Source of the DNA: Fabrea salina
Taxonomy: Eukaryota > Ciliophora > Heterotrichea > Heterotrichida > Fabreidae
NCBI GenBank assembly: GCA_022984795.1
Contig: JALIHJ010000039.1
Span: 124,001 to 188,000, forward strand
Length of the DNA: 64,000 nucleotides
Reading direction: 5' to 3'
Under the pieces are notes generated by a model. That model did no database searches, was not told the origin of the DNA, and saw nothing but the letters and a program-made list of their open reading frames with translations. A program made the position numbers and the translations under genes. Of this stretch, positions 5,151 through 61,680 are shown piece after piece (positions within the stretch are counted from its first letter, which is position 1; every line of letters begins with the position of its first letter).

Positions 5151-5155
5151 AAAAA
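5151..5155 (-). terminator. Pol III oligo-T terminator of tRNA-Gly copy 1
   Basis: Five T residues on the minus strand directly after the discriminator base of the tRNA gene. Confidence 0.8.
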
Positions 5156-5227
5156 TGCACTGTCCGGGACTCGAACCCGGGTCGAATGCTTGGAAGGCAC
5201 CCATCCTAACCTCTAGACTAACAGTGC
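5156..5227 (-). tRNA. tRNA-Gly (anticodon UCC), copy 1
   Basis: A complete 72-nt cloverleaf on the minus strand. Acceptor GCACTGT pairs with ACAGTGC, with discriminator A and no encoded CCA. The anticodon stem holds the loop CTTCCAA (anticodon UCC, reading GGA). The T stem CCGGG/CCCGG encloses TTCGAGT. Internal promoter boxes are visible: A box TAGTCTAGAGG and B box GGTTCGAGTCC. No intron. It lies between the convergent PROPPIN and SMC2 genes. Confidence 0.95.
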
Positions 5228-5260
5228 TCTGGAAGTAACTCTCAAACTAACCTTTTATAC

Positions 5261-10607: not shown

Positions 10608-10612
10608 AAAAA
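10608..10612 (-). terminator. Pol III oligo-T terminator of tRNA-Gly copy 2
   Basis: Five T residues on the minus strand directly 3' of the tRNA gene, as in copy 1. Confidence 0.8.
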
Positions 10613-10684
10613 TGCACTGTCCGGGACTCGAACCCGGGTCGAATGCTTGGAAGGCACCCATCCTAACCTCTAGACTAACAGTGC
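10613..10684 (-). tRNA. tRNA-Gly (anticodon UCC), copy 2
   Basis: Base-for-base identical to the tRNA at 5156-5227, with the same cloverleaf, anticodon UCC, A and B boxes and following T5 terminator. It sits between the divergent ORC1 and DHHC genes, only 49 bp from the DHHC start codon. Confidence 0.95.
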
Positions 10685-10733
10685 TCTGGAAGTAACTCTC
10701 AAACTAACCTTTTATACTTAAAGTTTATATTTA

Positions 10734-27036: not shown

Positions 27037-27060
27037 ATTATATTGGACTGTAATGTTTTG

Positions 27061-42069: not shown

Positions 42070-42489
42070 ATGGCAAACAAGTACTTAAAGCAGTTTCCTG
42101 TGCCGGAGGAGTATCCTAACATTCTGAGGGACTTAACTCGGGAGATTCTTAGACTGCAGCCTAGAGACATAATTAGCTTCGCAGCTAAGTATTTCAAGTG
42201 TAAAGAAAACAATACTGAATTTGCATGGGATGACCCTGACCCAAGAGCTCCTAGGCCTTGTGACTACTCCAAGCATAAAGTTCAAGTTAACGAAACTGAA
42301 CAAGCAAACGCTTCTGCAAGCTTGCCTGACTTAAAAGTCCAAGCTCAAGACCCAGGAAAAAAAGTTAACGAAACTGAACAAGCAAACGCTTCTGCAAGCT
42401 TGCCTGACTTAAAACTTCAAGCTCAAGACGCAGCAAAAACATATGTAGAGTTCCTTATCCGACAAGCTATAGATAATTACATTTTCTAG
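42070..42489 (+). CDS. RIIa (dimerisation/docking) domain protein, probably ciliary
   Basis: A 139-residue protein. Residues ~10-50 (VPEEYPNILRDLTREILRLQ then DIISFAAKYF) match the RIIa domain of PKA regulatory subunits, ROPN1 and SPA17, which docks to A-kinase anchoring helices and is common in radial spokes. Two copies of a 26-residue repeat (NETEQANASASLPDLK...) follow. No cyclic nucleotide-binding domain is present, so this is a docking adaptor. Confidence 0.82.
   Translation: MANKYLKQFPVPEEYPNILRDLTREILRLQPRDIISFAAKYFKCKENNTEFAWDDPDPRAPRPCDYSKHKVQVNETEQANASASLPDLKVQAQDPGKKVNETEQANASASLPDLKLQAQDAAKTYVEFLIRQAIDNYIF
42286..42441 (+). repeat. Two tandem 78-bp coding repeats
   Basis: The units at 42286-42363 and 42364-42441 are nearly identical, pointing to a recent in-frame duplication. 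Confidence 0.9.
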
Positions 42490-45172: not shown

Positions 45173-46567
45173 ATGGAAACTAGTTGTGGTTCAGGGTGTC
45201 CGGCTATTTACAAATGCAGTTGTGGAGTTCTCCTCTGTGATCATTTGATTACCAATCACATCATGCAGCGCCATACTGTAGGGCCTTTGCCTGGAAAAGC
45301 AACACTCAACGAAGCCTTTGAAGTGATTTCTGAGAAGAAGAACCAAATCATTCAAACGACTGAACTAGTTTTTTCAGAGCTCACTAAAGCAACCTCCCAA
45401 CAACTCCTCCGGCTTAGTCAACTGAGGAAGCAGATGGTTGGTTCTTATTCCAAGAGCTCACTAATCATTGACCAGGTAGTCCAAGAAGTTAACCAAATCA
45501 AACCTCAAGAAATGCTCAAGCAGGCTGTCAACCAACTGGGTTTGGGTGATTCGGAGGAAGCTGAAAGAAACGCAGAGTTGAAAGAAAGAGAAATTCAGAA
45601 ACTTAAGCAAGATTTTGAAAACCAAAGAAAGGCCCTTGAGTCTAATGTTGCTAGTCTACAAAAGCAAGTTGAGTTACTCCAAAAAGAAACTCCACGTACA
45701 ATAGTCTCTGCTGGTGCTGACACCAATGTCAGGGTGTGGAAGAATGGCCAGTGCAGAGTGTTAAAGGGACATGATGACACAATCTATTCATTGGCTGTGT
45801 CTTGGGCAAAAGACCTAATTGCATCAGGCAGCAGAGACTCAACTATTCGACTGTGGAGCCTAGCTACTGGAGAAGCAACTCAAGTGCTTAAGGGTCACAG
45901 TAATACAATATTATGTTTAGCTATTTCGAACAAGGATGAATTCTTAGTGTCAGGAAGCCGTGATGAAACTATCAGAGTGTGGAGTCTACCTTCTGGAAGA
46001 CAAACTTTATTGCTTGAAAGCCACAGTAGTGTTGTTAACTCAGTAGCCATTTCTAGCAGGGACCAACACATTGTCTCTGGTAGTGCTGACAGTACGGTTA
46101 GAGTGTGGAGTCTAAATACTGGAGAAGTGGTTAAAGTCTTAAGAGACCATAGTGGCACTATCGATTCAGTGGCCATTTCCAAGACTGACCAATACGTTGT
46201 TTCCGGTAGTTGGGATCATAGTGTGAGAGTGTGGAGTTCGATTTCTGGCGAAATGACTAGACTTCTTAAAGGACATAGTGGTTATGTCAGGTCAGTTGCT
46301 ATTTCAGGCAACGGAAAGTTTGTAGTATCAGGAAGTGATGACAAAACTATTAGAGTGTGGAGTCTCACTTCTGGAAAAACTACTCAAGTACTCAGAGGGC
46401 ATGCCGGAGGAGTACTTTCAGTGAGTCTATCAAATGACGACAAGTACTTGGTGTCTGGAGGTGGCACTAGAGACAAATCAGTGAGAGTTTGGAACCTCTC
46501 TACAGGTGAACAAACTCAAGAACTAAAAGGGCATACTAGTCAAGTGTGGTCAGTTAAGATAATTTAA
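45173..46567 (+). CDS. B-box-like zinc finger, coiled coil, WD40 propeller protein (copy 2)
   Basis: A 464-residue twin of 27061-28455 with the same length and architecture. Residues ~45-325 are almost identical to the twin. Differences cluster in the zinc finger (ITNHIMQRHTVG vs VMSHITQRHSVC) and in WD blades 4-5 (residues ~325-385). This pattern points to recent duplication or gene conversion with a diversified block. It starts 18 bp after the transporter and lies just before the kelch-like array. Confidence 0.88.
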   Translation: METSCGSGCPAIYKCSCGVLLCDHLITNHIMQRHTVGPLPGKATLNEAFEVISEKKNQIIQTTELVFSELTKATSQQLLRLSQLRKQMVGSYSKSSLIIDQVVQEVNQIKPQEMLKQAVNQLGLGDSEEAERNAELKEREIQKLKQDFENQRKALESNVASLQKQVELLQKETPRTIVSAGADTNVRVWKNGQCRVLKGHDDTIYSLAVSWAKDLIASGSRDSTIRLWSLATGEATQVLKGHSNTILCLAISNKDEFLVSGSRDETIRVWSLPSGRQTLLLESHSSVVNSVAISSRDQHIVSGSADSTVRVWSLNTGEVVKVLRDHSGTIDSVAISKTDQYVVSGSWDHSVRVWSSISGEMTRLLKGHSGYVRSVAISGNGKFVVSGSDDKTIRVWSLTSGKTTQVLRGHAGGVLSVSLSNDDKYLVSGGGTRDKSVRVWNLSTGEQTQELKGHTSQVWSVKII

Positions 46568-46743
46568 TACAGATTTCTAGAACACCCTAAGTGTGCAGTC
46601 AGAAGAAGAAAGAATGAAATTTTAGAGATCCTAAATGATTACAAGTCGAAAACAGAAAAGTCAATCTTTATTGAAGCGAGAAGTTGTATACACGAAATCA
46701 CTCAACAGTTTTTTGAATCAACAACTAATATAAATGGAAGATA
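46568..46743 (+). pseudogene. Chimeric gene relic between WD40 gene and array
   Basis: Directly after the WD40 stop the same frame stays open for 58 codons. It reads like a coiled coil of a zinc finger paralogue (KNEILEILNDYKSKTEK) and ends EITQQFFESTTNINGR, almost the exact end of the array gene at 48099-49475. It therefore joins two different fragments and carries no start of its own. Confidence 0.6.
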
Positions 46744-48092
46744 GTTGTTTTAAAAATGGGTGTGAAGAAGAGCCTTCTATGTCCTGCAAATGCACTAATC
46801 CACCTACCAAATCATGCGAGTCCCACTTCTTGAAGCACATGAGGAATAATCCCTTTGGCAAACACGATCCTTTAGTCCTAAAGATTTATGTTGACTCGAT
46901 TGATTGTCAGGAAGTCATTGAAGTTTTAGAGTCCCACAAAAAGAACATCTACAGCAACATTCAGAAGCTAACTCAAGTAACTAAGCAGTTGTACTTGTGC
47001 ATTGAAACAGAATTTGTCAACGAGTCAAATAGATTAAGAAAAAGAGAAATGGAGATACAGAAGTTGATTGAAGAACTAAGCGATCTAACAGAGTTTAAGA
47101 TCGGTCAAGAAAACCCTATTCTATTCGACTGCAAGAAGAGGCAAACGCTTGAACAAGTATGAGGAATTTTCTAGAGTCTTTAATCTGTCAAGTCTCAAAA
47201 AAAGCTGTGACCAGATTTTCAATCAGAATGCTCACTTGAACTATTCAGCTAAGACCATTCCAGAAGAAGAAAAAATTCCCGCTCTAGAAGACAACAAAGT
47301 CTACCAATTCAGCACCATTTCAAGCTCTCTCATTACTTACGACTTATCCACTATGCAGAAGACAGAAAGTTTCATAGAAGGAGAACTCTTAGGAGCTTCT
47401 ATTAAGTGTGTTTTGCCTGATGGAAGACTTTTCTGCTACAAAGAATCAACAAAGAGTTGTTTTCTGTTTGATGTTGACAATAATACTTTTACTTCTTTAG
47501 ATAAACCTACTGCTGAACGTATTGTTACTTCCGTCGAGATCAAGTTATTGAGTCAGTAAAGGACACAACTGCACTGGTAGATGATGATGTCATACACTTT
47601 GTCGGGACTAAAAATGAAAGAAACTCAGTGTCAGATGTTTACATGCAGTTTGACCTAAAAACTATGAAGTGGGGTTGTGATACTCACAAGCAGTTGAACC
47701 TAGAAGGCTTTAGTGGAAGAGAGGCGAGCTTGATTAAGTTCGAAGGCAGAATTTATGCTACTTTTTATAACTCTCAATACGTGTACATGTATTCGAGAGA
47801 GAGGAACAATTTCATAGAGATATTCAAATTGAATTCTAACCGAAATAAGCTTTTATTTCAGCATGGGAATAGATTGTTCCTACTAATTGATCGTGAATTA
47901 TACCGTATGGAATCTAGCTCAAAGAGATTCACTAGAATGGGAAATTCTAGCTCACCTATCACTAGCAGCCTTTACACCACCAAAACATCAGGAAATTCAG
48001 TGATCTTCTGTTGTAACAATACAGAACCCTTGAAATTGGATCTGGCGGCATACAGTCTCACTCAACTACGATTCAGTGAAGCAAGAACTTAA
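46734..48092 (+). pseudogene. Array unit A: frameshifted B-box-like/kelch-like gene
   Basis: N-terminal 130 codons match unit C (49465) with only a few differences. Around 47130 a 17-nt deletion relative to unit F changes the frame, and near 47500 an insertion of about 38 nt changes it again. The three open segments (46734-47162, 47149-47559, 47628-48092) together cover the family length. No 15-16 nt intron repairs it. Confidence 0.85.
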
Positions 48093-48098
48093 TAATAA

Positions 48099-49475
48099 AT
48101 GGAAGATAAGTGTTTTCAAGAGGATTGCCAAGAAGACGCTTCTTTGTCATGCAAGTGCACTGAGTCTTTAGTAGGGATGTGTGAGCTTCACTTCCTCAAG
48201 CATATTAAGAAAACTCCTTTTGCAGAACACTCCTCTGTGGTGTTGAAGATTAGTGTTGGCTCAGAAGACTCACAAGAAATTATAAATGTTTTGGAGAGTC
48301 AGAAGAAAAACATCTATGAAAGTATTGAAAAGTTAACTCAATTCGTTCAAAGAATACATTCTTGTGTCCAGAACGAGTCAGCTAAAGCACTGAGTGAACT
48401 AAAAAAAAGAGAACAGGAGATACAGGACCTTATTGAGTTGCTAAAGAATTTGAAAGACTTCAGAACTGACGAAGACAACAAAGTTCTGTGTGACTTGTTT
48501 TCTGGGGACGCAGAAGTAAAAGCTAGTCGCTTGAAAGACTATGAAGAGCTGTCGAAGTTGTTTGATGTATCTAACTTCGAGAAGAGTATTGGCGAACTGT
48601 TAAATGAAAGTAATCATCTGAACTACTCAGGTGTTTCTGGAAATGAGGACGTCTACTACTTTAGTCAGCTTTCAAGTGCATTGGTTACTTATGACTTACT
48701 GAATATGCAAGTAAAGGAAAAGGTGCTTGAAGGGGACTTTTTAGAAGCTTCGGTGGTTTGTGTTTTACCTGATGAAAGGCTGCTTTGTTGTAAGGGACAG
48801 AACTATTTTATTTTTGATGTCCGGGAAAACACTAGAGTTGATGCAGGGGCGTGTGATTCGATTAAAGATTCAGTTAGTTTTGTAGATGACGGGGTTGTAC
48901 ACTTTTTTACAAATCCTAATGCACAGAGGCAATATAACTTACATAGCCAACTCAATTTGGAAACATTAAATTGGTCTCAGGTAAATTACGGAAATAGTCT
49001 TTATGGTACGTTTGGTGGACCCATACAACCACAACAACCAAGAAACCCTAAAACCATCAGTTTCCAAGGAATCAATCAAAATGGCATTACCTTGGTTAAA
49101 TTCAAAGGAGAAATCTATGCCGCTAATTTTAATTCTCCATATGTGTACAAGTACTCCCAAGAAAAGAGTAATTTCATACAGTTATTCAATCTAAGATCCC
49201 AAAACCAATCCAAGTCACTATTTCAGCACAAAGAGACTTTGTACTTGCTACAGGGTCCTAATTTGTACTACATGGACTCCAAGTCGAGCAAATTCATTCT
49301 ACTGAAGTCAGATTGTGGACACTTATCTACAGTCAATCTATATTGCACTAAAGAAATTGGCAATTCACTGTACTTCTGCTACAGAGACGAGAAGCTCTAT
49401 AGACTCAACCTAGACACCTACGAAATCACTCAACTACCATTCAGTGAATCAACAACTAATATAAATGGAAGATAG
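48099..49475 (+). CDS. Array unit B: B-box-like zinc finger, coiled coil, kelch-like propeller
   Basis: A 458-residue intact member. Zinc-site residues C5, C10, C18, C20, C28, H31, H35 and H44 follow the family pattern. A coiled coil covers ~55-150. From ~210 on, repeated strands of kelch/F-box-associated style occur (VYYFSQLSSALVTYDLLNMQ, LVKFKGEIYAANFNSPYVY, LYCTKEIGNSLYFCYRDEKL). A one-base shift at the end removes the usual stop, so it reads ESTTNINGR and ends 11 nt inside unit C. Confidence 0.82.
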   Translation: MEDKCFQEDCQEDASLSCKCTESLVGMCELHFLKHIKKTPFAEHSSVVLKISVGSEDSQEIINVLESQKKNIYESIEKLTQFVQRIHSCVQNESAKALSELKKREQEIQDLIELLKNLKDFRTDEDNKVLCDLFSGDAEVKASRLKDYEELSKLFDVSNFEKSIGELLNESNHLNYSGVSGNEDVYYFSQLSSALVTYDLLNMQVKEKVLEGDFLEASVVCVLPDERLLCCKGQNYFIFDVRENTRVDAGACDSIKDSVSFVDDGVVHFFTNPNAQRQYNLHSQLNLETLNWSQVNYGNSLYGTFGGPIQPQQPRNPKTISFQGINQNGITLVKFKGEIYAANFNSPYVYKYSQEKSNFIQLFNLRSQNQSKSLFQHKETLYLLQGPNLYYMDSKSSKFILLKSDCGHLSTVNLYCTKEIGNSLYFCYRDEKLYRLNLDTYEITQLPFSESTTNINGR

Positions 49476-50822
49476 GTGTTTTAAAAATGGGTGTGAAGAA
49501 GAGCCTTCTATGTCCTGCAAATGCACTAATCCACCTACCAAATCATGCGAGTCCCACTTCTTGAAGCACATGAGGAATAATCCCTTTGGCAAACACGATC
49601 CTTTAGTCCTAAAGATTTATGTTGACTCGATTGATTGTCAGGAAGTCATTGAAGTTTTAGAGTCCCACAAAAAGAACATCTACAGCAACATTCAGAAGCT
49701 AACTCAAGTAACTAAGCAGTTGTACCTGTGCATTGAAGCAGAATTTGTCAACGAGTCAAATAGATTAAGAAAAAGAGAAATGGAGATACAGAAGTTGATT
49801 GAAGAACTGAGCTACTTAACAGAGTTTAAGATCGGTCAAGAAAATACTACTCTGTGTGACTTATTCTCAAATAACCGTAGAAGAAGGATTAAATGCTTGA
49901 GCAAGTATGAAGAACTCTCTAAAGTCTTTAATTTCTCTGAGTTGCAGAAAAGTTGTGAAAAAATTTTCAATCAGAATGCTCATTTGAACTACTTAGCTGA
50001 TACTGTTGAAGTAGAGAAGTTTGTGTCAGCAGACAACAAAGTCTACCAATTCAGCACCATTTCAAGCTCTCTCATTACTTATGACCTATCCACTATGCAG
50101 AAGACAGAAAGTTTCATAGAAGGAGAACTCTTAGGAGCTTCCATCAAGTGTGTTTTGCCCGATGAGAAGACTTTTCTGCTACAAAGAATCAGCAATGAGT
50201 TGTTTTCTGTTTGATGTTGACAGATAATACAACTATTTACTTGGATAAACCTGCTGAGTCAATACAGGATACAACTGCACTGGTAGATGATGATGTCATA
50301 CACTTTGTCGGGACTAAAAATGAAAGAAACTCAGTGTTAGATGTTTACATGCAGTTTGACCTAAAAACTATGAAGTGGGGTTGTGATACTCACAAGCAGT
50401 TGAACCTAGAAGGCTTTAGTGGAGGAGAGGCGAGCTTGATTAAGTTCGAAGGCAGAATTTATGCTACCAATTCAGTATCTGGATGTTTGTACATATATTC
50501 GAGAGAGAAGAACAAGTTCATAGAGATATTCAAATTGAATTCTGACCGAAATAAGCTTTTATTTGAGCATGGGAATAGATTGTTCATATTATATGATGAA
50601 GATCTATACCTTATGGAATCCAGCTCAAAGATATTCACTAGACTAAGAAGAATTGTTCCGGTAGGCATTAGTTACTGTGGTAACTTTTTTGGTACTAGTC
50701 CTTATTGGACCAAAACATCAGAAAATTTAGTAATCTTCTGTTGTAACAACGAGGCACCGTATGTATTGAATTTGGAGACACAAAAGATAACTCAACTACC
50801 ATTCAGTGAAGCAAGAACTTAA
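49465..50822 (+). pseudogene. Array unit C: frameshifted B-box-like/kelch-like gene
   Basis: The first 240 codons are intact and nearly identical to unit A. Single-base insertions relative to units A/E at about 50165 and 50223 shift the frame, so the propeller is split (49465-50214 and 50211-50822). The 3' segment continues the family sequence to the usual EART end. Recent decay, or an expressed truncated protein of 249 residues. Confidence 0.82.
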
Positions 50823-50827
50823 TATAA

Positions 50828-52204
50828 ATGGAAGATAGGTGCTTTCAAGAAGGGTGTTGGGAAGAGACTTTTCTATTGTGTAGGTGCACTGACCCTCCCA
50901 CTGGAGTATGTGAGTCTCATTTCTCTCAGCATATAAGAACTAATTTCTTCGGCAAGCATGACACTGTATTCTTGAAGACCTATGTTGACCCAGAAGATTC
51001 TCAGAAAGTGATCAGCGCCTTAGAACGCCAGAAAGAAAGTGTCTACGAAAACATGAAGCACCTAGACGAGGTAACTAAAAAACTCCACCTGTGCATAGAA
51101 GCAGAGTTCAAGAAAGAGTTAAACCAACTAAAGACGAGAGAAAACGAAATTCAAAACCTGATTGACCGAATAACTGGACTCAAAGAGTTCAAAATTAGCC
51201 AAAGCGATAGTGTTTTGTGTGAATTATTTTCAGGAGACAACTTCAGAAGAAGCAAATGCTTACAAAACTACGTGCGACTTTCAATGACTTTTGACACGTC
51301 AAGCTTGAAGAAGAGCTGTGAGAAGATCTTTAGTGAGTATGAACACTTGAACTACTCAGGTGAACTTTCAGAAGACGAGATATACTGGTTCAGTGATACC
51401 TCCACTAGTTTGGTTACTTATAACTTATCAACTAAACAGAAGTCAGAAAAGCACTTCGAAGGCGAACTGTTGGGGGCTTCTATGGAGTGTGTCTTGCCTG
51501 ACGGAAGATTGTTTTGTCGTAACAAGCAAAGACTTCAGCATTACTTCATTGTTGATATTTGTAATGGTAGAGTCATTCCTTTAGAGGAACCTACTAACAA
51601 AACTGGAAATCAAATAACAACGTTGCCAGATGATGATGTTGTACACCTTGTTGATTATTCTAACCAGGCTCAGTTAACTTATATGCACTTTGACTTGAAA
51701 ACAATGCAATGGGACTCCAATCCTAACAAGAAACTGAACTTAGAAGCACTCACTGCATTTCCATTAAGTTTGGTAAAACGTGAAGGTAAGATTTATGCCA
51801 TCAGTAGCAATTACAATGGAGTCTGGATGTACTACAAGGAAAGAGGCCAATTTATACAGATATTTGGAGTGAGATTACCTCAGGATGCTTATAATCGTTG
51901 CTCCGTTACTAACAAGGCGCTATTTGTGCACGGTAATAGACTCTTTTTCTTCTGCGAAACTAATAACAACAATCGGTATAACGGTGGAGTTCAAAATACC
52001 AACGCTTTATACTGCATGGAAGCAGGCTTGAACGAATTTACTCAGGTGAAACTCTATGATCACAATCCGAATTTCAATACCTCTAGCTACTTCTACAAAA
52101 CCCGAAACTCAGTGTACTTTTGGACAAACAATCAATCAGTTGCTAAGTTTGACCCAAAAACGTATGAAGTCACCCAAGTAAAACTTAATCAAGCAAGAGC
52201 TTAA
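50828..52204 (+). CDS. Array unit D: B-box-like zinc finger, coiled coil, kelch-like propeller
   Basis: A 458-residue intact member (CFQEGCWEETFLLCRC...CESHFSQH). Zinc ligands, coiled coil (residues ~55-150) and propeller strands (IYWFSDTSTSLVTYNLSTKQ, SLVKREGKIYAISSNYNGVW) are all present. It starts five bases (TATAA) after unit C and ends five bases before unit E. Confidence 0.83.
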   Translation: MEDRCFQEGCWEETFLLCRCTDPPTGVCESHFSQHIRTNFFGKHDTVFLKTYVDPEDSQKVISALERQKESVYENMKHLDEVTKKLHLCIEAEFKKELNQLKTRENEIQNLIDRITGLKEFKISQSDSVLCELFSGDNFRRSKCLQNYVRLSMTFDTSSLKKSCEKIFSEYEHLNYSGELSEDEIYWFSDTSTSLVTYNLSTKQKSEKHFEGELLGASMECVLPDGRLFCRNKQRLQHYFIVDICNGRVIPLEEPTNKTGNQITTLPDDDVVHLVDYSNQAQLTYMHFDLKTMQWDSNPNKKLNLEALTAFPLSLVKREGKIYAISSNYNGVWMYYKERGQFIQIFGVRLPQDAYNRCSVTNKALFVHGNRLFFFCETNNNNRYNGGVQNTNALYCMEAGLNEFTQVKLYDHNPNFNTSSYFYKTRNSVYFWTNNQSVAKFDPKTYEVTQVKLNQARA

Positions 52205-52209
52205 TATAA

Positions 52210-53558
52210 ATGGAAGATAAGTGCTTTCAAGAAGGGTGTGGGGAAGAGGCTTTTCTATTGTGCAAGTGCACTGACCCTCCTACTGGAGTATGTGAGTCTC
52301 ATTTCCCTGAGCACATGAGAAGTAATCCTTTTGTTAAACATGATCCTGTAATTCTAAAGGTTTATGTTAACCCAAATGACTCCCGAGAGGTCATCAATAC
52401 TCTGGAGTCCCACAAAAGGAACATCTACAGCAACATGCAGAAACTAGCCGAAGTAACTAAGCAGCTTCATCTGTGTATTGAAGCAGAGTTTGCCAAAGAA
52501 ATGAAACAATTCAAGAGCAGGGAAAGGGAGATTCAGGACCTAATTGACACCCTAATTGAACTCAAAGAACTTAGAACTGACCAAGACAATAGTTTTTTGT
52601 GTGAGTTATTTCAGGAGACAATGTAAGAAGGAGTAAATCCTTGAGTAAGTATGAGAAACTTTCAAAAGCCCTTAATTTCTCTAACTTGAAAGCCAATTGT
52701 CAACAGATTCTCGATGAGAATGCCCACTTGAATTACTTACCTAGTGCTCGCCCAGAAGAGAAATTTATATCAGAAGACAATAAAGTCTACCAATTCAGCA
52801 CCACTTCAAGTTCTCTCATTACTTACGACTTATCCACTATGCAGAAGACAGAAAGTTTCATAGAAGGAGAACTCTTAGAAGCTTCCATTAAGTGTGTTTT
52901 GCCTGATGGGAAACTTTTCTGCTACAAAGAATCAACAAAGAGTTGTTTTCTGTTTGATGTTGACAATAATACAACTATTTACTTGGATAAACCTGCTGAG
53001 TCAATAAAGGACACAACTGTACTGATAGATGATGATGTCATACACTTTGTCGGTAAAGTTTACATGAACTTTAACATAAAAACTATGAAGTGGGGTTGTG
53101 ATATTCACAAGCAGTTGAACTTAGAAGGCTTTAGCGGAATAGAGGCGAGCTTGATTAAGTTCGAAGGCAGAATTTATGCTACCAATTCTGTATCTCAATA
53201 CGTGTATATGTATTCAAGAGAGAGGAACAAGTTCATAGAGATATTCAAAATCCCTTCCTTTCGCTATCTGGATAATAAGCTTTTATTTGAGCATGAAGGT
53301 AAACTATTCCTAATTGATACTGAATTATACCGTATGGAATCCAGCTCAAAGACATTCATTAAACTGAGAAATATTTCTAGTTATACTAGCTCACCTGGCC
53401 CTAGTAGATTTTCTAGCTCACCTATCCCTAGTAGCCTTTACACCACCAAAACATCAGGAAATCTTATGATCTTCTGTTGTAACAATATAGGACCCTTGAA
53501 ATTTGATCTGGCGGCATACAGTATGACTCAACTACGATTCAGTGAAGCAAGAACTTAA
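52210..53558 (+). pseudogene. Array unit E: B-box-like/kelch-like gene with one frameshift
   Basis: Zinc finger and coiled coil are intact to codon 138; then one T is missing from a TTTT run (about 52607) relative to unit D, ending the frame at 52626. The rest (52641-53558) is open and family-like to the EART end. A single recent lesion, or a sequencing error in a homopolymer. A 14-nt GTGAGTTATTTCAG would restore frame if spliced but creates a TGA at the junction, so it is not an intron. Confidence 0.8.
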
Positions 53559-53559
53559 T
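53543..53559. repeat. 17-bp direct repeat, left side of insertion
   Basis: TGAAGCAAGAACTTAAT, identical to 53747-53763; flanks a 187-bp foreign segment. Confidence 0.85.
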
Positions 53560-53746
53560 TTATTTATTTATGTGAGCTAGTTCAAGCCGCCTAGGCCTCT
53601 ACTGACTGGGTTTTTCTTGTGTTTTTTCATTCGTTTTTGGTCTTCGGTTCTTTTCCTTTTTCGCGTTTCTTCTTGAGTTAGGAGTGTTTTTGCTTCTTTT
53701 TGTCGTTCTGTTTTTTCTTGTGAGGTTTTTCTGGTCTTTATGATGA
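53560..53746 (-). pseudogene. Inserted 3' fragment of an unrelated gene
   Basis: On the minus strand a Lys/Arg-rich frame without ATG runs to a TAG at 53579-53577 and ends KRMKKHKKNPVSRGLGGLN, then an A-rich stretch (ATAAATAAATAAA). It reads like the 3' end of a nuclear basic protein gene and has nothing in common with the array. It sits exactly between two copies of a 17-bp repeat. Confidence 0.65.
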
Positions 53747-53763
53747 TGAAGCAAGAACTTAAT
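53747..53763. repeat. 17-bp direct repeat, right side of insertion
   Basis: Second copy of TGAAGCAAGAACTTAAT; it leads straight into TATAAATG of unit F. Confidence 0.85.
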
Positions 53764-53767
53764 ATAA

Positions 53768-55132
53768 ATGGAAGATAAGTGTTTTCAAGAAGGGTGTGAA
53801 GAAGAGTCTTTTTTATTGTGCAAGTGCACTGAACCTCACACCAAAGCGTGTAAGCCTCATTTCTTCAACCATATGGTGAATAACCCCCTCGGCAGCCATA
53901 GTCCTATAGTTTTAAAGATCCAAGTGAGTTCCAGCGATTGTCAGGAAGTCATTGAAGTTTTAGAGTCCCACAAAAAGAACATCTACAGCAACATGCAGAA
54001 GCTAGCCCATATAACTAAGCAGTTGTACCTGTGCATTGAAGCAGAGTTTGTCAAAGAAATGACTGGACTGAGGAAAAGAGAAATGGAAATCCAAAAGTTG
54101 ATTGAAGAACTGAGCTACTTAACAGAGTTCAGAACTGACCGAGAAAACCCTATTCTATTCGACTTGTTTTCAAACGAGAGTGCAAGAAGAGGCAAACGCT
54201 TGAACAAGTATGAGGAACTCTCTAGAGTCTTTAATCTGTCAAGTCTCAAAAAAAGCTGTGACCAGATTTTCAATCAGAATGCTCATTTGAACTATTCGGC
54301 CACGAACACTGGCGAATTGACCTCAGATGATAAAGTGTGCCAATTCAGCAGTACTTCCAATACTTTGACTATGTACAACTTATCAACCATGCAAAAAACG
54401 GAAAAATTCTTAGAAGTAGATGTACTAGGAGCTTCTGTGAAGTGTATTCTCCCTGACGGAAGACTATTTTGCTGTAAGAATATAGGATTTAATTCGAATC
54501 AGGGAACAGGACAAAAGTGGTTTCTGTTTGATATTCTTAGCAGCAGTGTAAGTTCTTTAGGTTCTTGTGGGACTAAAAATGTAACTGTATTCTTAGAAGA
54601 TGACATTATAAATGTAGCGGGCTATGAAAATGGATATCGAGGGAGTATAGATCCGGTGCATGATCATTTTAACTTAAAAACAATGAAATGGTACCGTAAT
54701 TTCAATGAAGAAAAAAGAATCAAATTTTATAATAGTACTTACAGAAGCTTAGTTAGGTTTGAAGGAAAAGTCTATGCTACTACCAATGCCTCTTCTCAAT
54801 ATGTCTATATGTATTCTAGAGAAAGTGGAAGTTTTATAGAGGCATTTAGACTGGATAGCGGCAATAAATTCTTGTTTGAAGGAAGGAATAGGCTCTTTTT
54901 ACTCTCGCAAATTTCAAATTATTCGAATCAACTCATCTTATATCATATGGAACCAGGCTCAAAGAAATTCATTGAATTAAAGCGGTATAACCTTAGTGCA
55001 TTCTCAATGCCTAGCTACACGAAGAAACTTGGAAATTCATTGTACTTTTGCTCTGATAATGGACTACCTGTCAAGTTTGATCTAGAAACATACGAGATTA
55101 CTCAGCAAAAGTTCTCAGAAGCAAGCATTTAA
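53768..55132 (+). CDS. Array unit F: B-box-like zinc finger, coiled coil, kelch-like propeller
   Basis: A 454-residue intact member (CFQEGCEEESFLLCKC...CKPHFFNHM). Its coiled coil and the segment LFSNESARRGKRLNKYEELS share long stretches with decayed unit A, showing exchange between units. The propeller half differs more (VCQFSSTSNTLTMYNLSTMQ, SLVRFEGKVYATTNASSQYV). It ends EASI, seven bases before unit G. Confidence 0.83.
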   Translation: MEDKCFQEGCEEESFLLCKCTEPHTKACKPHFFNHMVNNPLGSHSPIVLKIQVSSSDCQEVIEVLESHKKNIYSNMQKLAHITKQLYLCIEAEFVKEMTGLRKREMEIQKLIEELSYLTEFRTDRENPILFDLFSNESARRGKRLNKYEELSRVFNLSSLKKSCDQIFNQNAHLNYSATNTGELTSDDKVCQFSSTSNTLTMYNLSTMQKTEKFLEVDVLGASVKCILPDGRLFCCKNIGFNSNQGTGQKWFLFDILSSSVSSLGSCGTKNVTVFLEDDIINVAGYENGYRGSIDPVHDHFNLKTMKWYRNFNEEKRIKFYNSTYRSLVRFEGKVYATTNASSQYVYMYSRESGSFIEAFRLDSGNKFLFEGRNRLFLLSQISNYSNQLILYHMEPGSKKFIELKRYNLSAFSMPSYTKKLGNSLYFCSDNGLPVKFDLETYEITQQKFSEASI

Positions 55133-55139
55133 TAATAAG

Positions 55140-56456
55140 ATGGAAGTTAAGCAGTCTGAGGACGAAGTAGAGATAGTAGAAGAGAAGTGCTTTAAAGAAG
55201 GCTGTGAAGAAGATGTCTGCTTGTTGTGTAAGTGCGCTGATCTTCCTACTAGAATATGCAAGGCACATTTTTTCAGCCATATGGTGAATAGACCCTTTGT
55301 TAAGCACGATCCTATAATTCTAAAGATGTATGTTGACCCAAACGACTCCCAAGAGGTCATCAATACTCTGGAGTCCCACAAAAGGAACATTTACAGCAAC
55401 ATGAAGAACTTGGCTGAGGTAACTAAGCATTTACACCTTTGCATTGAAGCAGAGTTCATCAGAGAAATGAATGAACTTAAAAAGCGTGAAAAGGAAATCC
55501 AGGACCTAATCGACAAGTTAATTGACTTAACTGAGTTCAGAACTAACCAAGAAAATACTGTTCTGTGTGACCTTTTTTCAAATGATAACGCGAGAAAAAC
55601 CAAGTGTTTGAGTAAGTATGAAGGATTGTCAAAGGCTTTCAGTCTCTCTGACTTAAAAGCTAGTTGCAGACAAGTCTTTAGTGAACATGAACACTTGAAC
55701 TACTCAAGCAACCTTGAAGATAGTGAATTTTACTCCTTCAGTAACGATTCAAGTGCCTTGATTATTTATGACTTATTAACAATGGAAAAGAAAGAAAGGC
55801 CTTTGGAAGGGGAATTCATGGGAACTTCAGTATTATGTGCCTTACCAGATAGGGTGTTGCTTTGTCGTAGGGAGAGTAACTATTTTCTGTTTGATGTTAA
55901 AAGAAACAGTGTTACTGACTTAAGATCGCCTGGTTATAATATTGGTGCTGTATTCAGTTTGATAGAGAGCGATACTGTTCATCTCCTTGGAAATATTTAT
56001 TCACGATTTGATCTTCAAAAATTAGAATGGAATAATGAGAAAAAATTGAATTTAGAAGGAAATACGAATGGAGTAAGCTTGGCTAAGTTTGAAGGTGATA
56101 TTTACGCCACCAATGATAAGTCCGAATGGATATACATGCACTGCATTGAAAAGAAGCGATTCATAAAAATATTTCGGCTGGATTATAATGGACCTAAGTT
56201 ACTGTTTGAGCACGGAAACATACTCTTTCTAGCACTATATGGTAATCAACCAAAAAAAGCCTTATATCATATGGAATCAACCTCAAAGAAATTCTTTCAA
56301 TTAAAGACCTATGATTATAATCCGTTTATTAGTATATATCAATCCATCAAGAAACTGGAAAATTCAGTATACTTCTATCAGGGTCAAGCAATCACTAAAT
56401 TCGATCCAAAAACGTATGAAGTCACCCAAGTAAAACTTAATGAAGCAAGAACTTAA
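55140..56456 (+). CDS. Array unit G: B-box-like/kelch-like with extended N-terminus
   Basis: A 438-residue intact member. An acidic leader (MEVKQSEDEVEIVEE) precedes the zinc finger (CFKEGCEEDVCLLCKC...CKAHFFSHM), unlike its sisters, which start MEDKC/MEDRC. Coiled coil and propeller follow (FYSFSNDSSALIIYDLLTME, SLAKFEGDIYATNDKSEWIY). It ends EART, then TATAA, then unit H. Confidence 0.83.
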   Translation: MEVKQSEDEVEIVEEKCFKEGCEEDVCLLCKCADLPTRICKAHFFSHMVNRPFVKHDPIILKMYVDPNDSQEVINTLESHKRNIYSNMKNLAEVTKHLHLCIEAEFIREMNELKKREKEIQDLIDKLIDLTEFRTNQENTVLCDLFSNDNARKTKCLSKYEGLSKAFSLSDLKASCRQVFSEHEHLNYSSNLEDSEFYSFSNDSSALIIYDLLTMEKKERPLEGEFMGTSVLCALPDRVLLCRRESNYFLFDVKRNSVTDLRSPGYNIGAVFSLIESDTVHLLGNIYSRFDLQKLEWNNEKKLNLEGNTNGVSLAKFEGDIYATNDKSEWIYMHCIEKKRFIKIFRLDYNGPKLLFEHGNILFLALYGNQPKKALYHMESTSKKFFQLKTYDYNPFISIYQSIKKLENSVYFYQGQAITKFDPKTYEVTQVKLNEART

Positions 56457-56461
56457 TATAA

Positions 56462-57934
56462 ATGGAAGATAGGTGCTTTCAAGAGGGGTGTGAGGAGGAG
56501 GCTTCTCTATTGTGTAAGTGCGTTGAACCTCATGTTAAGGCGTGTGAGTCTCACTTCTTCAACCACATGACAAGCAATGCTTCACGCAACCACAACCCCA
56601 TAGTTCTGAAGATCAAGGTTGACTCAAGCGACTCCCAAGAAGTTATTGGCATTCTAGAGTCGCATAAAAGAAACATCTACGACAATATTAAGAACCTGGC
56701 TGAGGTGACTAAGCATTTACACCTGTGCATTGAAGCAGAGTTCGTGAAGGAGTCCAACAACCTAAGAGCAAGACTAAACGAGATTCAGAACCTGATTGAG
56801 AAACTAAGCGACCTCAAGCAATTCAGGAACGACCAAACCAATGCTACTCTGTACGAACTGTTCTCAGGAGACAACGTAGAAAGAAACAACTGCTTAGAAA
56901 AATACGAAGAGCTGTCTAAAGCACTTGACTTGTCAAACTTCAAAAAAAGCTGTGAAAGAATTTTCATTGAAAGTAGTCGCTTGAACTACTCACCTGTTCC
57001 TGAAGAAGATAAGGATAGCGAAGTCCACGAATTCAGTGACTCTTCAAACGCACTGATTACTTACAACCTTTCAACTATGCAGAGAAGAGAAAGGTTCTTA
57101 GAGGGAGAATTCATAGGCTCGAAGGTAAAGTGCGTGTTGCCAGACGGAAGACTGTTTTGCTACAGAGAACTAAGAAGTCAAATATTCATTTTTGATCCTA
57201 GCAACAACAATATATCCTACGTAGAGCCTTTTAGTTCATTCAACTTATCTCGAGATATAGCCTTTTTGGTAGATGACTACATCATACACTTTATCTTTAC
57301 CGTAATTTTTGATGGGCATCTAAGAACAGAACGTTACCTTAGGTACGTTCAATTTGACTTGAAGAGAATGAACTGGATTCACAATAGCCAGAAAACTTTG
57401 AACCTAGAAGGATTCATTAAGGAAAATTCAAGTGAATATTCAGCAAGAAGTATAAGCTTGGTTAAATTTGAGGATGATATATATGCTACTGCTACTTACT
57501 CTAGTTACGTTTACGTTTACTGCAGACAAAGAAATCGTTTCATAGAAATATTTAAGTTGGAGCATTCTGATAATGATTCTATGTTGTTATTTGTGCATAA
57601 AGACAAACTTTATTTACTTGAACGTGGAATTTTACCTCAACTTGGGATTAGATCAGGCTTTACTAAGTTATCTGTTATGATACCACATTCAAAGAGGTTC
57701 ATTAGATTGCATAGCTTCGATTGTGATATTGGCTTAAATCCTTATTGTATCAGAAGCATCAGTAATGGTATATACCTTTGTTATTACCATGGATATTTCA
57801 TAAAAATCAATCTAGAAAACTACAATGTTGAGCTGATTGATGGAATTAGGTTCACTTTGATCACTGGAGCTCCAAAGGAGTTTCATACTCAAGCGACCAC
57901 TGTAGTTCGAAACTCATTTTGCAGTTTAATTTAA
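56462..57934 (+). CDS. Array unit H: divergent B-box-like/kelch-like member
   Basis: A 490-residue member. The zinc finger (CFQEGCEEEASLLCKC...CESHFFNHM) and coiled coil are family-typical and close to unit J. The propeller is longer, and the final 30 residues (GAPKEFHTQATTVVRNSFCS...) are unique: the usual EART end is gone. A 91-bp spacer follows before unit I, the longest clean spacer inside the array. Confidence 0.8.
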   Translation: MEDRCFQEGCEEEASLLCKCVEPHVKACESHFFNHMTSNASRNHNPIVLKIKVDSSDSQEVIGILESHKRNIYDNIKNLAEVTKHLHLCIEAEFVKESNNLRARLNEIQNLIEKLSDLKQFRNDQTNATLYELFSGDNVERNNCLEKYEELSKALDLSNFKKSCERIFIESSRLNYSPVPEEDKDSEVHEFSDSSNALITYNLSTMQRRERFLEGEFIGSKVKCVLPDGRLFCYRELRSQIFIFDPSNNNISYVEPFSSFNLSRDIAFLVDDYIIHFIFTVIFDGHLRTERYLRYVQFDLKRMNWIHNSQKTLNLEGFIKENSSEYSARSISLVKFEDDIYATATYSSYVYVYCRQRNRFIEIFKLEHSDNDSMLLFVHKDKLYLLERGILPQLGIRSGFTKLSVMIPHSKRFIRLHSFDCDIGLNPYCIRSISNGIYLCYYHGYFIKINLENYNVELIDGIRFTLITGAPKEFHTQATTVVRNSFCSLI

Positions 57935-58025
57935 TTATTTCCGCGATTCTTTGGCTTTTCTAGAATCGCTTTGAGTTGCTCTTAAACTATTAAACCAGCA
58001 TCACATTAGGTATGGTTAATCAAAT

Positions 58026-59330
58026 ATGGAATACAAGTGCTTTCAAGAGGGCTGTCAAGAAGAAGCTTTTCTGCTATGCAGGTGCACTATGACCGGCACA
58101 AAAGCTTGTAAGTCTCATCTCTTTGACCATATGATGAATAAATCCGCTGTCAACCATAATCCTGTACCCTTGAGATTTTCTGTTGACCCAGATGACTCAA
58201 ACAAGGTCATCAACACTCTAGAAGCTTACAAAAGAAACATCTACAGCAGCATGAAGAATTTGGTTCAAGTGGGTAAGGAGCTCCACTTATGCATTGAAGC
58301 AGAGATTGCCAAGGAAATGAAGGAACTCAAGAAGCGGGAAAAAGAGATCGAGGACTTAATCGATACTCTAAGCGAGTTGACCTATGTAAGAATTGACCAA
58401 GACAGCACTAATCTGTGTGACCTGTTCTGTGAAGACAATGCAAGAAAAAGCAATGCTTTGAGTAAGTACGAAGGGCTCTCCAAGGTTCTCAATCTCTCCA
58501 ACTTAAACAATAGTTGTCAAAGAGTTTTAAATCGAAATTATTACTTGAGTCGTTTAGGCGATTACTCTGAGATTGCAGAAAAAGACAAAATCTACTACTT
58601 CAGTGAGTTCTCAAGTAGTTTGATTACTCTTGATCTGTCAACTATGCAAGAAACAGAAAAGGTAATAGAAGGAGTATTAGGGGCCTCTGTAAAGTGTATT
58701 TTGCCTTATGGAAATCTTTTGTGTTATGTTGATTTATTGTCAAAAAGGACTTACTTTAAACTTGATGTTATTGACGGTATAGTTACCTTCTTAGAACAAC
58801 CGAATGAACAAATAGATCAGATGAATGCACTCGTAGGTAACAAATTTGTACGCTTTACACGAAAATCAAATTATAGTCCCAGCTACGTACTTCTTGATTT
58901 AACAACAATGGAGTGGTGTAACAATAATCATCCAATAGTATTGGATATGCAAGGATTTGATTACTTGATCAGATTTGGAGGTAAGATTTATGGTACTGAA
59001 CCTAATTCTCCGTACGTATATGTCCGTTTAAATAATTACCATTTCACGAAAGGTTATAGATTAGAAAATGGGCGTAAGATGTTATTCGCACACCGAAATA
59101 AACTCTTTTTATTAGCTCAAAATAGTAAAACATTATACTGCATGGAATCAGGTTCGAAGAGGCTTGTCCAACTGAAGACCTATGATTCTGATCCAGGTAT
59201 TTTAGATCCCATTTACACTAACACCCTGATATATTCAGTGTGCTTCTATTTTGAAAACAAATCAATCATTAAATTCGACCCGGAGACATATGAATTTACC
59301 ACTTTACAACTCAATCAAGCAAGAACTTAA
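58026..59330 (+). CDS. Array unit I: B-box-like zinc finger, coiled coil, kelch-like propeller
   Basis: A 434-residue intact member (CFQEGCQEEAFLLCRC...CKSHLFDHM). Coiled coil over residues ~55-150. Propeller strands include IYYFSEFSSSLITLDLSTMQ and LIRFGGKIYGTEPNSPYVYV. It ends NQART, then TATAA, then unit J, restoring the array's short spacing after the gap behind unit H. Confidence 0.82.
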   Translation: MEYKCFQEGCQEEAFLLCRCTMTGTKACKSHLFDHMMNKSAVNHNPVPLRFSVDPDDSNKVINTLEAYKRNIYSSMKNLVQVGKELHLCIEAEIAKEMKELKKREKEIEDLIDTLSELTYVRIDQDSTNLCDLFCEDNARKSNALSKYEGLSKVLNLSNLNNSCQRVLNRNYYLSRLGDYSEIAEKDKIYYFSEFSSSLITLDLSTMQETEKVIEGVLGASVKCILPYGNLLCYVDLLSKRTYFKLDVIDGIVTFLEQPNEQIDQMNALVGNKFVRFTRKSNYSPSYVLLDLTTMEWCNNNHPIVLDMQGFDYLIRFGGKIYGTEPNSPYVYVRLNNYHFTKGYRLENGRKMLFAHRNKLFLLAQNSKTLYCMESGSKRLVQLKTYDSDPGILDPIYTNTLIYSVCFYFENKSIIKFDPETYEFTTLQLNQART

Positions 59331-59335
59331 TATAA

Positions 59336-60880
59336 ATGGAAAATAAGTGTTTTCAGGAAGGTTGCGAAGAAGAGGCTTCTTTCTTGTGCAAGTGCATTAG
59401 CCCCCATGTCAAAACGTGTGAGTCTCACTTCTTCGACCACATGACAAGCAATGCTTCACGCAGACACAACCCCATAGTTCTGAAGATCAGGGTTGACTCG
59501 GATGACTCTAGGGAAGTCATTGACATCCTAGAGTCGCATAAGAATAACATTTACAGCAACATGAAGAAACTCGCTGAAGTAACCAAAGAACTTCACCAAG
59601 GCATTGAAGCAGAGTTTGTGAAGCACTCAAACAGCCTAAGAACAAGACTGAACGACATTCAAATCCTGATTGAGAAACTAACTACTCTGAAGGAGTTCAG
59701 AAACAACAAGCTGAACGCCAGTCTATACGAACTGTTTTCAGGAGACAGAGCAAGAAGAAACAACTATTTACAGAAGTACGAAGAGATGTCTAAAGCAATT
59801 GACTTGCCGAACTTCAGAAAAGAGTGCAACAAGATTGTGAGCGAAATTAATCGCTTAGACCAGCCATCTCCTCCTAGAAAAGAAGTTAGATCAGGGAGTA
59901 GCGAAGTCCACGAATTCAGTGACTCTTCAAACGCACTGATTACTTACAACCTTTTAACAATGCAAAGCAGAGAAAGGTCCTTGGAAGGAGAATTTAAAGG
60001 CTCAAAGGTAAAGTGTGTACTACCAGACGGAAGACTGTTTTGTTATAGAAGTCCAGAAAACACAGGATTTATCTTTGACCCAGCTGAAAGAACTGTAGTT
60101 AAAATAGGTGAGCCTCCTTGTGTGTTTAACTCGTTCATAAATTCCAAAGTGTTTATACACGACGGCGTGGTCTACTTCCCTGGCTGTGAGATTACTGACT
60201 TAAGAATATGCAATCAAAACTTATGCCTGAGGTTTGGGTTCGAACCTATGAACTGGGGTTGGAATCCCCCCAAAAGTCTAAGTCTACTAGGATGCGATAT
60301 GAAAGGCACAACTGTAGATAAGTTGAACAACCAGATCTACGCTACAAACAACTACTCTAATCAACTTTATATTTACAGTGAAGAAGGCGATCTAATACAT
60401 TCATATGGTTTAGAAGGCCGAGTTGGCTTTAAGTTGTTATTTGTACACAAAGGCAAGCTTTATCTACTTGACAGAGACCCATCAGACCGTTTGACTAATC
60501 TCTTGTGCATGGAAACCAGTTCAGAAGCATTTCACTGGGTGAATTCATTTGAGTTGCCAATTGGCTTAAACCCTTACTGTGTCAAAAGCATTGGGAATGC
60601 AGTGTACTTCTGCTTTAATGACCAAAGCTTCGTTAAAATGAACCCAGAACACCTTTTAGATGATTGTGCTTACATAAAGAAGTCTGCTTTTAGTTCCTGG
60701 ACAAATCTTAACTACTATTCAGAGCGGTCAAGAGAACTGCTGGACCAAAACAAACTAAATCCTCTTTTATGGGGTTTGGGATTTCTACTCATAGTGTACT
60801 TTCCTGGTATTCTATGGGCCATTGTGATAGTTATATTTCTAACTATTATCATAAGTACTTACCTTCGAACTAATAACTAA
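59336..60880 (+). CDS. Array unit J: B-box-like/kelch-like member with C-terminal membrane helices
   Basis: A 514-residue member. Zinc finger (CFQEGCEEEASFLCKC...CESHFFDHM), coiled coil and propeller match unit H. After the propeller a polar linker leads to a hydrophobic hairpin near residues 480-510 (LLWGLGFLLIVYF, GILWAIVIVIFLTIII) and ends STYLRTNN. Only this unit has membrane segments, so its receptor-like part would be tethered to a membrane. It stops two bases before DDRGK1. Confidence 0.83.
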   Translation: MENKCFQEGCEEEASFLCKCISPHVKTCESHFFDHMTSNASRRHNPIVLKIRVDSDDSREVIDILESHKNNIYSNMKKLAEVTKELHQGIEAEFVKHSNSLRTRLNDIQILIEKLTTLKEFRNNKLNASLYELFSGDRARRNNYLQKYEEMSKAIDLPNFRKECNKIVSEINRLDQPSPPRKEVRSGSSEVHEFSDSSNALITYNLLTMQSRERSLEGEFKGSKVKCVLPDGRLFCYRSPENTGFIFDPAERTVVKIGEPPCVFNSFINSKVFIHDGVVYFPGCEITDLRICNQNLCLRFGFEPMNWGWNPPKSLSLLGCDMKGTTVDKLNNQIYATNNYSNQLYIYSEEGDLIHSYGLEGRVGFKLLFVHKGKLYLLDRDPSDRLTNLLCMETSSEAFHWVNSFELPIGLNPYCVKSIGNAVYFCFNDQSFVKMNPEHLLDDCAYIKKSAFSSWTNLNYYSERSRELLDQNKLNPLLWGLGFLLIVYFPGILWAIVIVIFLTIIISTYLRTNN

Positions 60881-60882
60881 TA

Positions 60883-61680
60883 ATGCTGCTTGAAGTTGTA
60901 AGTATAGGGTTGCTAAGTGTTTTAATAGCCACAATAGGAATCTGGTTCTTCAAAAGCTCCTCACAAACAGAACCTGAAGCTCCCAGAAGAGGCCTCAACA
61001 GGATGCAACTAAATCCCGAAGAAGAAGAACAAGAAGAACAGAAGATGACAGAAAAAGAAGCTAAAAAAGCCCAGAAAAAAGAAGAACGCAAAGCCCAAAG
61101 GGAAGCAAGACAAGCAGTAGTGGACCAGAAAGAAAAAAAACGCCAAGACAGAGAAGCCAAGTGGCTAGAAAGGGAAAAAGAATGGGAACAAAAAGAAGCT
61201 GAAGAAGAAGCCAAACGCAAAGCTGAAGAAGAAGCCAAACAAAAGGCCCAAGAAGAAGAATACATGAAGTGGAAAGACATGTTCCAAGTAGAAGACGAAG
61301 GCGAAGAACTCCAAGAAGGTTCTTACGACCTGAACCGGTTCTTAGAGTACATAAAGCTCCGCAAAGTAGTGATGATAGAAGACATAGCGGCTGAGTTTGG
61401 GCTTGAAGGGAAGTCAGTGGTAGAGAGACTCCAGGACTTAGAGAACAGTGGGTACTTAACTGGAATAGTTGACGACCGAGGCAAGTACATCTACTTAACT
61501 GAAGAAGAACTACTTGGAGTCAAAGCTTACATTGAGAACCGAGGCAGAGTCACCAGGATGGAACTCAGTCAAGAAGGCAACCGACTCATTAGACTAGAAC
61601 CCACTCAAGAAGACAAACTTAAAATCGAAGAAGAAGAAAAAAGCTTGGCACAAAACTTAGACGAAGAGCATAATGCTTAA
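60883..61680 (+). CDS. DDRGK1: DDRGK domain protein, UFMylation adaptor
   Basis: A 265-residue protein. An N-terminal membrane helix (VVSIGLLSVLIATIGIWFF) and a long charged Glu/Lys/Arg-rich helix precede the conserved PCI/winged-helix-like domain with the name-giving IVDDRGKYIYLTEEEL. DDRGK1 (UFBP1) recruits the UFM1 ligase UFL1 to the ER. It starts two bases after unit J and its stop abuts the convergent dehydrogenase stop with no gap. Confidence 0.95.
   Translation: MLLEVVSIGLLSVLIATIGIWFFKSSSQTEPEAPRRGLNRMQLNPEEEEQEEQKMTEKEAKKAQKKEERKAQREARQAVVDQKEKKRQDREAKWLEREKEWEQKEAEEEAKRKAEEEAKQKAQEEEYMKWKDMFQVEDEGEELQEGSYDLNRFLEYIKLRKVVMIEDIAAEFGLEGKSVVERLQDLENSGYLTGIVDDRGKYIYLTEEELLGVKAYIENRGRVTRMELSQEGNRLIRLEPTQEDKLKIEEEEKSLAQNLDEEHNA

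Follow-up and report, generated by a model that had tools for sequence, protein, structure and literature searches.

A ten-gene tandem array in the ciliate Fabrea salina that may encode TRIM-like adaptors with differing kelch-fold faces

What might a ciliate do with ten copies of one gene, set head to tail, alike at one end and different at the other? The question is raised by a stretch of 64,000 nucleotides (nt) from Fabrea salina (contig JALIHJ010000039.1, positions 124,001 to 188,000; called the window below, and all coordinates are those of the window), in which an array at 46734-60880 encodes proteins with a cysteine/histidine (Cys/His) module, a long helix and a C-terminal domain predicted to be a propeller. 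A first-pass annotation of this DNA had described ten head-to-tail paralogues with a B-box-like zinc finger, a coiled coil and a kelch-like propeller, and had proposed that they form a recognition repertoire. We confirmed the array itself: ten homologous units lie on the plus strand, with pairwise DNA identities of 0.65-0.89, seven of them open (B, D, F, G, H, I and J) and three broken in frame (A, C and E). As to what it encodes, we lean, if only slightly, towards RING-less, TRIM-like adaptors in which a conserved scaffold carries differing ligand faces, the set being renewed by exchange between copies.

The N-terminal module is common to every copy. The ligand series C5-x4-C10-x7-C18-x-C20-x7-C28-x2-H31-x3-H35-x8-H44 is invariant in 10/10 units, a wider reach than the single unit, H, for which it had been spelled out before. 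Its first cysteine is residue 5 (17 in G), which leaves no room for a RING ahead of the module. A model of the N-terminal 124 residues, made from an alignment of all ten units, has one helix at 55-123, for which the predicted local distance difference test score (pLDDT) is 95-98 within 61-120; its Cys/His part is weakly resolved. The helix is amphipathic at a period of 3.60, a peak reached in 15 of 2000 shuffles, and the power at 3.5 is half as large; what stands of the proposed coiled coil is one long amphipathic helix, as a prediction. Foldseek returned 16 structural matches to this model at E up to 10 and none at E up to 0.001. The top match is the RBCC domain of KAP1, a weak one (E 0.28), and 8 of the 16 carry B-box or KAP1 RBCC/tripartite names, none significant. 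On the strength of these models we call the anatomy TRIM-like without a RING, and membership of the TRIM family is not claimed.

The C-terminal part was modelled with AlphaFold2 from an alignment of the seven intact units, with F as the query. At a mean pLDDT of 67.9 the prediction has a helix at 55-116 and 23 strands across residues 189 to 446, which we assigned to six predicted blades. With the propeller model Foldseek found 502 matches in the PDB at E up to 0.001; among the best 50 of these 502 (E 2.4e-11 to 2e-8, with KLHL17 at 9.6e-10), 48 titles name SAKe designs, which we take to be kelch-based, KLHL proteins, KEAP1 or other kelch proteins, and 2 name none of these. A sequence search against solved structures gave no match better than E 0.03. 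No relatives of the array were found by tblastn among viral contigs (133 pattern matches) and prokaryote genomes (69), a result that, given these collections, says nothing on other ciliates.

It is in this propeller that the copies differ most. Among the seven intact units, mean pairwise amino acid identity is 0.54 in the zinc finger and 0.51 in the helical part against 0.37 in the propeller, as the first-pass annotation had it, and across the 21 pairs the ratio of nonsynonymous to synonymous differences per site (pN/pS) runs from 0.19 to 0.60, from 0.26 to 0.48 and from 0.50 to 0.65 in the three parts. The differences also have a place within the predicted fold. We assigned loop classes from the strands of the F model, in which the BC and DA loops line one face. 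Column entropy in these loops exceeds that in the AB and CD loops, both over all units (1.76 in 69 columns vs 1.24 in 41; one-sided Mann-Whitney p 1e-4) and over the seven intact ones (1.67 in 61 columns vs 1.28 in 41; p 0.001), and when entropy is compared by loop (11 vs 11) p is 0.033 for the intact units and 0.004 for all. Lengths vary by more than 2 residues in 5/11 BC/DA loops and 0/11 AB/CD loops (Fisher p 0.035). The aligner placed further length changes within strands, and the strands most affected, A3, D5 and A6, all adjoin DA loops; adding these to the loops gives 6/11 (intact units) or 7/11 (all units) vs 0/11. The suggestion of a variable surface is thus supported on the predicted model, the variation being concentrated in the loops of the likely kelch ligand face.

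The BC and DA loops are known from other kelch domains. They shape the substrate surface of KLHL20, according to the part of that paper used here (PMC6720452), and in an evolutionary analysis of Plasmodium K13, again from a partial text, DA- and BC-loop positions are the most strongly conserved (PMC6650413). To judge from that text, variability at these loops is not general among kelch domains. The same loops are the most variable in the array, and this modelled pattern, the reverse of that in K13, is what would be expected if the copies bind different things. The structural freedom of long loops offers an alternative cause that may account for part of it.

The copies also appear to have traded segments. 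In a mosaic scan with 25-codon windows, numbered by F residues, the best match of unit A changes along its length: it is C over 1-125 (identity 0.95-1.00), F over 121-185 (0.80-0.97), E over 181-265 (0.85-0.97; C does equally well in the first of these windows) and once more C over 261-325 (0.89-0.99). Identical runs were judged by 1000 codon shuffles in 10 of the 45 pairs. The longest runs of A-C (249 nt), A-E (67), A-F (65), H-J (56) and E-G (39) were each matched in 0/1000 shuffles; next come D-G with 36 nt (1/1000), C-E with 48 nt (6/1000) and E-F with 24 nt (29/1000); F-G (17 nt, 215/1000) and G-I (15 nt, 576/1000) gave no signal of exchange. The shuffle ignores the higher conservation of the N-terminus, yet the identical runs take in synonymous sites. 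This sequence pattern is most simply read as an exchange of segments among the copies.

Gene death is visible as well. As had been claimed, three units are frameshifted by few lesions. Compared with C, unit A is missing 17 nt near 47130 and carries 38 additional nt near 47510; C in turn, compared with A, has gained single bases near 50165 and 50223; and E is one base short at its frame change, between 52605 and 52626. We considered whether these breaks could be unspliced mini-introns and rejected the idea, as a scan for GT..AG stretches of 15-18 nt gave one 17-nt candidate in E and none at A or C. The near-identity of A and C over about 350 bp, also claimed earlier, amounts to 3 differences in the first 344 nt. 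It extends upstream: the 20 nt ahead of the start codon of A equal those ahead of the start codon of C (20/20), and blastn matches 46692-48279 to 49420-51007. A piece of a former neighbour, a 3'-end remnant at 46692-46733 on the plus strand, therefore appears to sit before A. Together these observations support the birth and death that had been proposed, with turnover through duplication, segment exchange and gene death.

Along the plus strand, unit A (46734-48092), a mosaic of C-, F- and E-like stretches, is broken in frame at two places; B (48099-49475) is intact, with 458 amino acids (aa), and ends 11 nt inside C (49465-50822), which is broken at two places; D (50828-52204) is intact, with 458 aa; and E (52210-53558) is broken at one place, its propeller lying wholly in one frame. 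After a 209-nt E-F spacer (53559-53767), at whose end lies a short leftover from the 3' end of a unit, come five intact units: F (53768-55132; 454 aa), whose predicted structure is the kelch fold, G (55140-56456; 438 aa), with 12 extra residues at its N-terminus, H (56462-57934; 490 aa), with a divergent C-terminal tail, I (58026-59330; 434 aa) and J (59336-60880; 514 aa). The hydrophobic C-terminal tail of J holds a putative transmembrane helix, with a 19-aa Kyte-Doolittle mean of 2.8 at residue 484; the other six intact units reach at most 1.7. The description of the array as almost without spacers holds for 6/9 junctions, where 5-7 nt reading TATAA, TAATAA or TAATAAG separate stop from start codon, and for the B-C overlap; it fails for E-F and for H-I, with a gap of 91 nt. 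One long fused gene in place of ten was rejected because every unit closes with a stop codon, either ahead of the next unit or shortly after its start. The stop region of B (48099-49475, with C starting at 49465) is unlike those of the other units, and the same variant junction precedes A. In the H-I spacer (57935-58025), inspection by eye shows a short inverted repeat, GCGATTCT .. AGAATCGC.

How might such proteins work? In the adaptor reading, the Cys/His module would bind two zinc ions in a B-box-like cross-brace and the helix would dimerise the protein, the two together forming a scaffold or effector end common to the copies. The BC/DA face of each propeller would grip a different protein or peptide, and tandem duplication, segment exchange between copies and copy loss would renew the set. 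Such proteins might serve in defence, in self-recognition, in the sensing of prey or in substrate selection of an ordinary kind.

Several results weigh against this reading. Pfam, taken in full up to E 10, matched none of the seven intact proteins (0/7) to a model for B-box, RING, BTB, F-box or kelch, and a B-box was likewise missing from the Pfam results for ten short N-terminal sequences, of which five came from array units. What remains of the term B-box is a likeness in the ligand series, lacking a Pfam match and with weak structural matches, and kelch-like describes the predicted fold of the intact units and not a Pfam-detectable motif. For the zinc region the two models give mean pLDDT values of about 36-55 and 47-71, and the whole-protein predicted template modelling score is 0.50, from a 7-sequence alignment. 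The loop contrast depends on the strand limits of one model, with some length changes falling inside strands, and the closest trio of units (A, C and E) consists of broken genes, so that some of the divergence in their loops may have arisen after gene death. In many intact pairs, synonymous sites are saturated. Overall omega, the ratio of nonsynonymous to synonymous rates (dN/dS), is 0.28 in the N-terminus; in the propeller it is 0.385 (0.36-0.38 on trimmed columns), and no positive selection was found in alignment-safe columns, in a test on few sequences with saturated dS and hence of low power.

The selection tests deserve a closer account, as a dN/dS check over the propeller had been proposed from the start. 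We used a purpose-written codon model and compared M1a with M2a on propeller codons; in the all-column run M0 was halted at 25 iterations. With gapped columns kept (251 codons), M2a improved on M1a by a doubled log-likelihood difference (2dlnL) of 15.48, but at an omega of 38, which is not plausible, and with three flagged sites. On gap-free columns 2dlnL fell to 8.11 (omega 21), and on columns at least 3 from any gap to 2.85 (8 units, 118 codons) or 2.81 (7 intact units, 119 codons), with omega about 4. The all-column run flagged residues 296, 380 and 406 of F; none of them recurs in the cleaned runs, where residue 257 is flagged instead (posterior 0.88 and 0.91). We set the all-column signal aside as probable alignment error; positive selection was thus not borne out, with omega below 1 overall and the gain of M2a shrinking to 2.8 away from gaps. 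Between A and E, dN/dS is 1.22 in BC/DA loops vs 0.57 in strands, a value that we did not use as evidence because the same loops give 0.56 for A-C and 0.87 for C-E and all three genes are broken. We conclude that constraint on the propeller appears weaker and more uneven, positive selection not being shown.

Such weaker constraint would also be seen if a scaffold or cytoskeletal protein family were undergoing ordinary birth and death, its redundant copies free to let their loops drift, with no repertoire of targets. We regard this explanation as possible, if doubtful. It is consistent with an omega below 1 that goes with a large near-neutral class under M1a (48% of propeller sites vs 33% of N-terminal sites), with the lack of robust positive selection and with the loss of 3/10 copies to frame breaks. 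Relaxation alone does not predict variability on one face, to which the freedom of the longer loops could add, and seven copies remain open with a propeller omega well below 1. The idea of a recognition repertoire has the place of the variation and the exchange of segments on its side, and no support from the selection tests.

Known systems offer parallels to the adaptor reading, each of them partial. TRIM/RBCC proteins such as KAP1 and TRIM5alpha, members of a family with rapid turnover, share the order of a Cys/His module, a long helix and a C-terminal recognition domain; the array lacks a RING, the Pfam B-box model does not detect its Cys/His module, and a predicted kelch propeller stands where B30.2 would be. 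BTB-kelch and other kelch proteins (KLHL3, KLHL17, KEAP1 and K13) share the kelch-fold propeller, predicted here, with the BC/DA side as the likely ligand face, whereas the array lacks a BTB domain and its kelch repeats go unseen by Pfam. The NWD/HNWD genes of Podospora, which act in non-self recognition, encode proteins with a NACHT domain. In the sections of the source drawn on here they number ten, some broken, with exchange between members and variation on one propeller face, and their WD40 repeats are in concerted evolution, both inside single genes and from gene to gene, while four positions show positive selection (PMC1805685). The array shares the first four of these features and differs in its kelch fold, its whole-gene arrangement in an array and in that positive selection was not found. 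Among ciliates, the young leucine-rich repeat (LRR) genes of Tetrahymena are likewise, in the portion of the source covered, a repeat-protein family with rapid turnover and ectopic recombination (PMC6564038). Unlike the array, these are genes of 90-bp exons with little whole-gene tandem duplication, about 1.6% arising directly in that way (PMC6564038, same portion). No such ciliate family appeared among the titles listed from the open-licence literature, and a term search of the main text of a Stentor regeneration paper found neither kelch nor B-box there (PMC9371601).

Could the array be part of something wider? Its neighbours include other genes that join a Cys/His N-terminus to repeats. A WD40 gene (45173-46567, plus strand) has an inverted sister that is 94.7% identical (27061-28455, minus strand), with patchy differences: 50 codons differ, 33 of them changing the amino acid, none lies in codons 40-186, and 40/50 fall in patches 26-39 (10) and 325-385 (30), the latter almost wholly within WD repeats 4 and 5. 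Positions 4, 6, 22 and 24 of the repeats, matched to the HET-D/E positions under selection (7, 9, 25 and 27), vary between repeats, but so do many others, and we make no claim from them. Two LRR genes with Cys/His N-termini lie at 34535-35791 and 35975-37405 on the plus strand, and a broken copy with several frame changes at 25583-27060 on the minus strand; the three have similar internal repeats, and their Cys/His N-terminus differs from that of the WD40 genes. Downstream, 2 nt after J, a DDRGK-domain gene follows (60883-61680; PF09756, E 2.3e-50), whose product we take to be a protein of the UFM1 pathway. It seems to start with a hydrophobic stretch of its own.

One may picture a germline-diversified ciliate repertoire, a counterpart of TRIM and NLR proteins, in which a Cys/His and helix plan carries three interchangeable ends (kelch, WD40 and LRR) and is renewed by segment exchange. 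We think this unlikely. Profile comparison did not show common descent of the Cys/His N-termini (p 0.27 for kelch-LRR, 0.015 for kelch-WD40 and 0.18 for LRR-WD40, from very thin profiles, with the kelch-WD40 cysteines partly in register), and on their sequences the three N-termini seem alike in plan only.

The setting of the array is compact as well. The window looks like macronuclear DNA from a heterotrich ciliate resembling Stentor. The 36 genes that we listed by hand end in TAA 30 times, in TAG 3 times and in TGA 3 times, which fits the standard genetic code. Stentor uses the standard code with introns of 15 to 16 nt, as stated in the part of the paper relied on (PMC9505925). Of the 15 candidates in our mini-intron scan, two have the form GTAA..TTAG, at 24783-24797 (GTAAGAATTGATTAG) and 23595-23609 (GTAATACTTACTTAG), both 15 nt long and on the minus strand, and removing either joins long open frames. 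Gaps of 0-28 nt also occur between unrelated neighbours among the 36 genes, for example 1 nt between UbiA and phenylalanine hydroxylase, 26 nt between a kinase and UbiA (divergent) and 28 nt between Rab and TPR genes (divergent), the labels UbiA, Rab and TPR coming from translations read by eye. The near-missing spacers of the array are therefore nothing special. Elsewhere in the window, two tRNA-Gly genes lie in identical 113-bp copies (5151-5263 and 10608-10720), and a direct repeat of 78 bp, its copies 95% identical, at 42284-42439.

Two further explanations fare worse. The units could be housekeeping substrate adaptors of a protein-modification pathway, with the zinc module replacing BTB or F-box, which we hold to be quite unlikely. 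The predicted kelch fold would suit this, as would loops on the ligand face whose lengths vary from member to member, something also seen in the BTB-kelch family so far as the sources used describe it, and the DDRGK-domain gene next to J; Pfam found no BTB, F-box or RING, and that gene is one of many close neighbours, so its place may be chance. An artefact, with a collapsed or chimeric assembly of fewer genes yielding mosaics and frameshifts, is very improbable: tandem near-identical stretches such as A-C do assemble poorly and the lesions of C and E are single bases, but the units diverge by 11-35% over their aligned length and the 17- and 38-nt lesions of A are atypical of base-call errors.

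To conclude, the array would merit attention even if its function were ordinary, as a kelch-fold group that Pfam models fail to recognise. If the propellers bind different partners, the array would provide a ciliate with a set of TRIM-like adaptors that vary on a single, identifiable surface, and the mechanism behind this diversity, an exchange of segments within a short array, would be visible in the sequence. The question of recognition repertoires in single-celled eukaryotes would then become directly testable.

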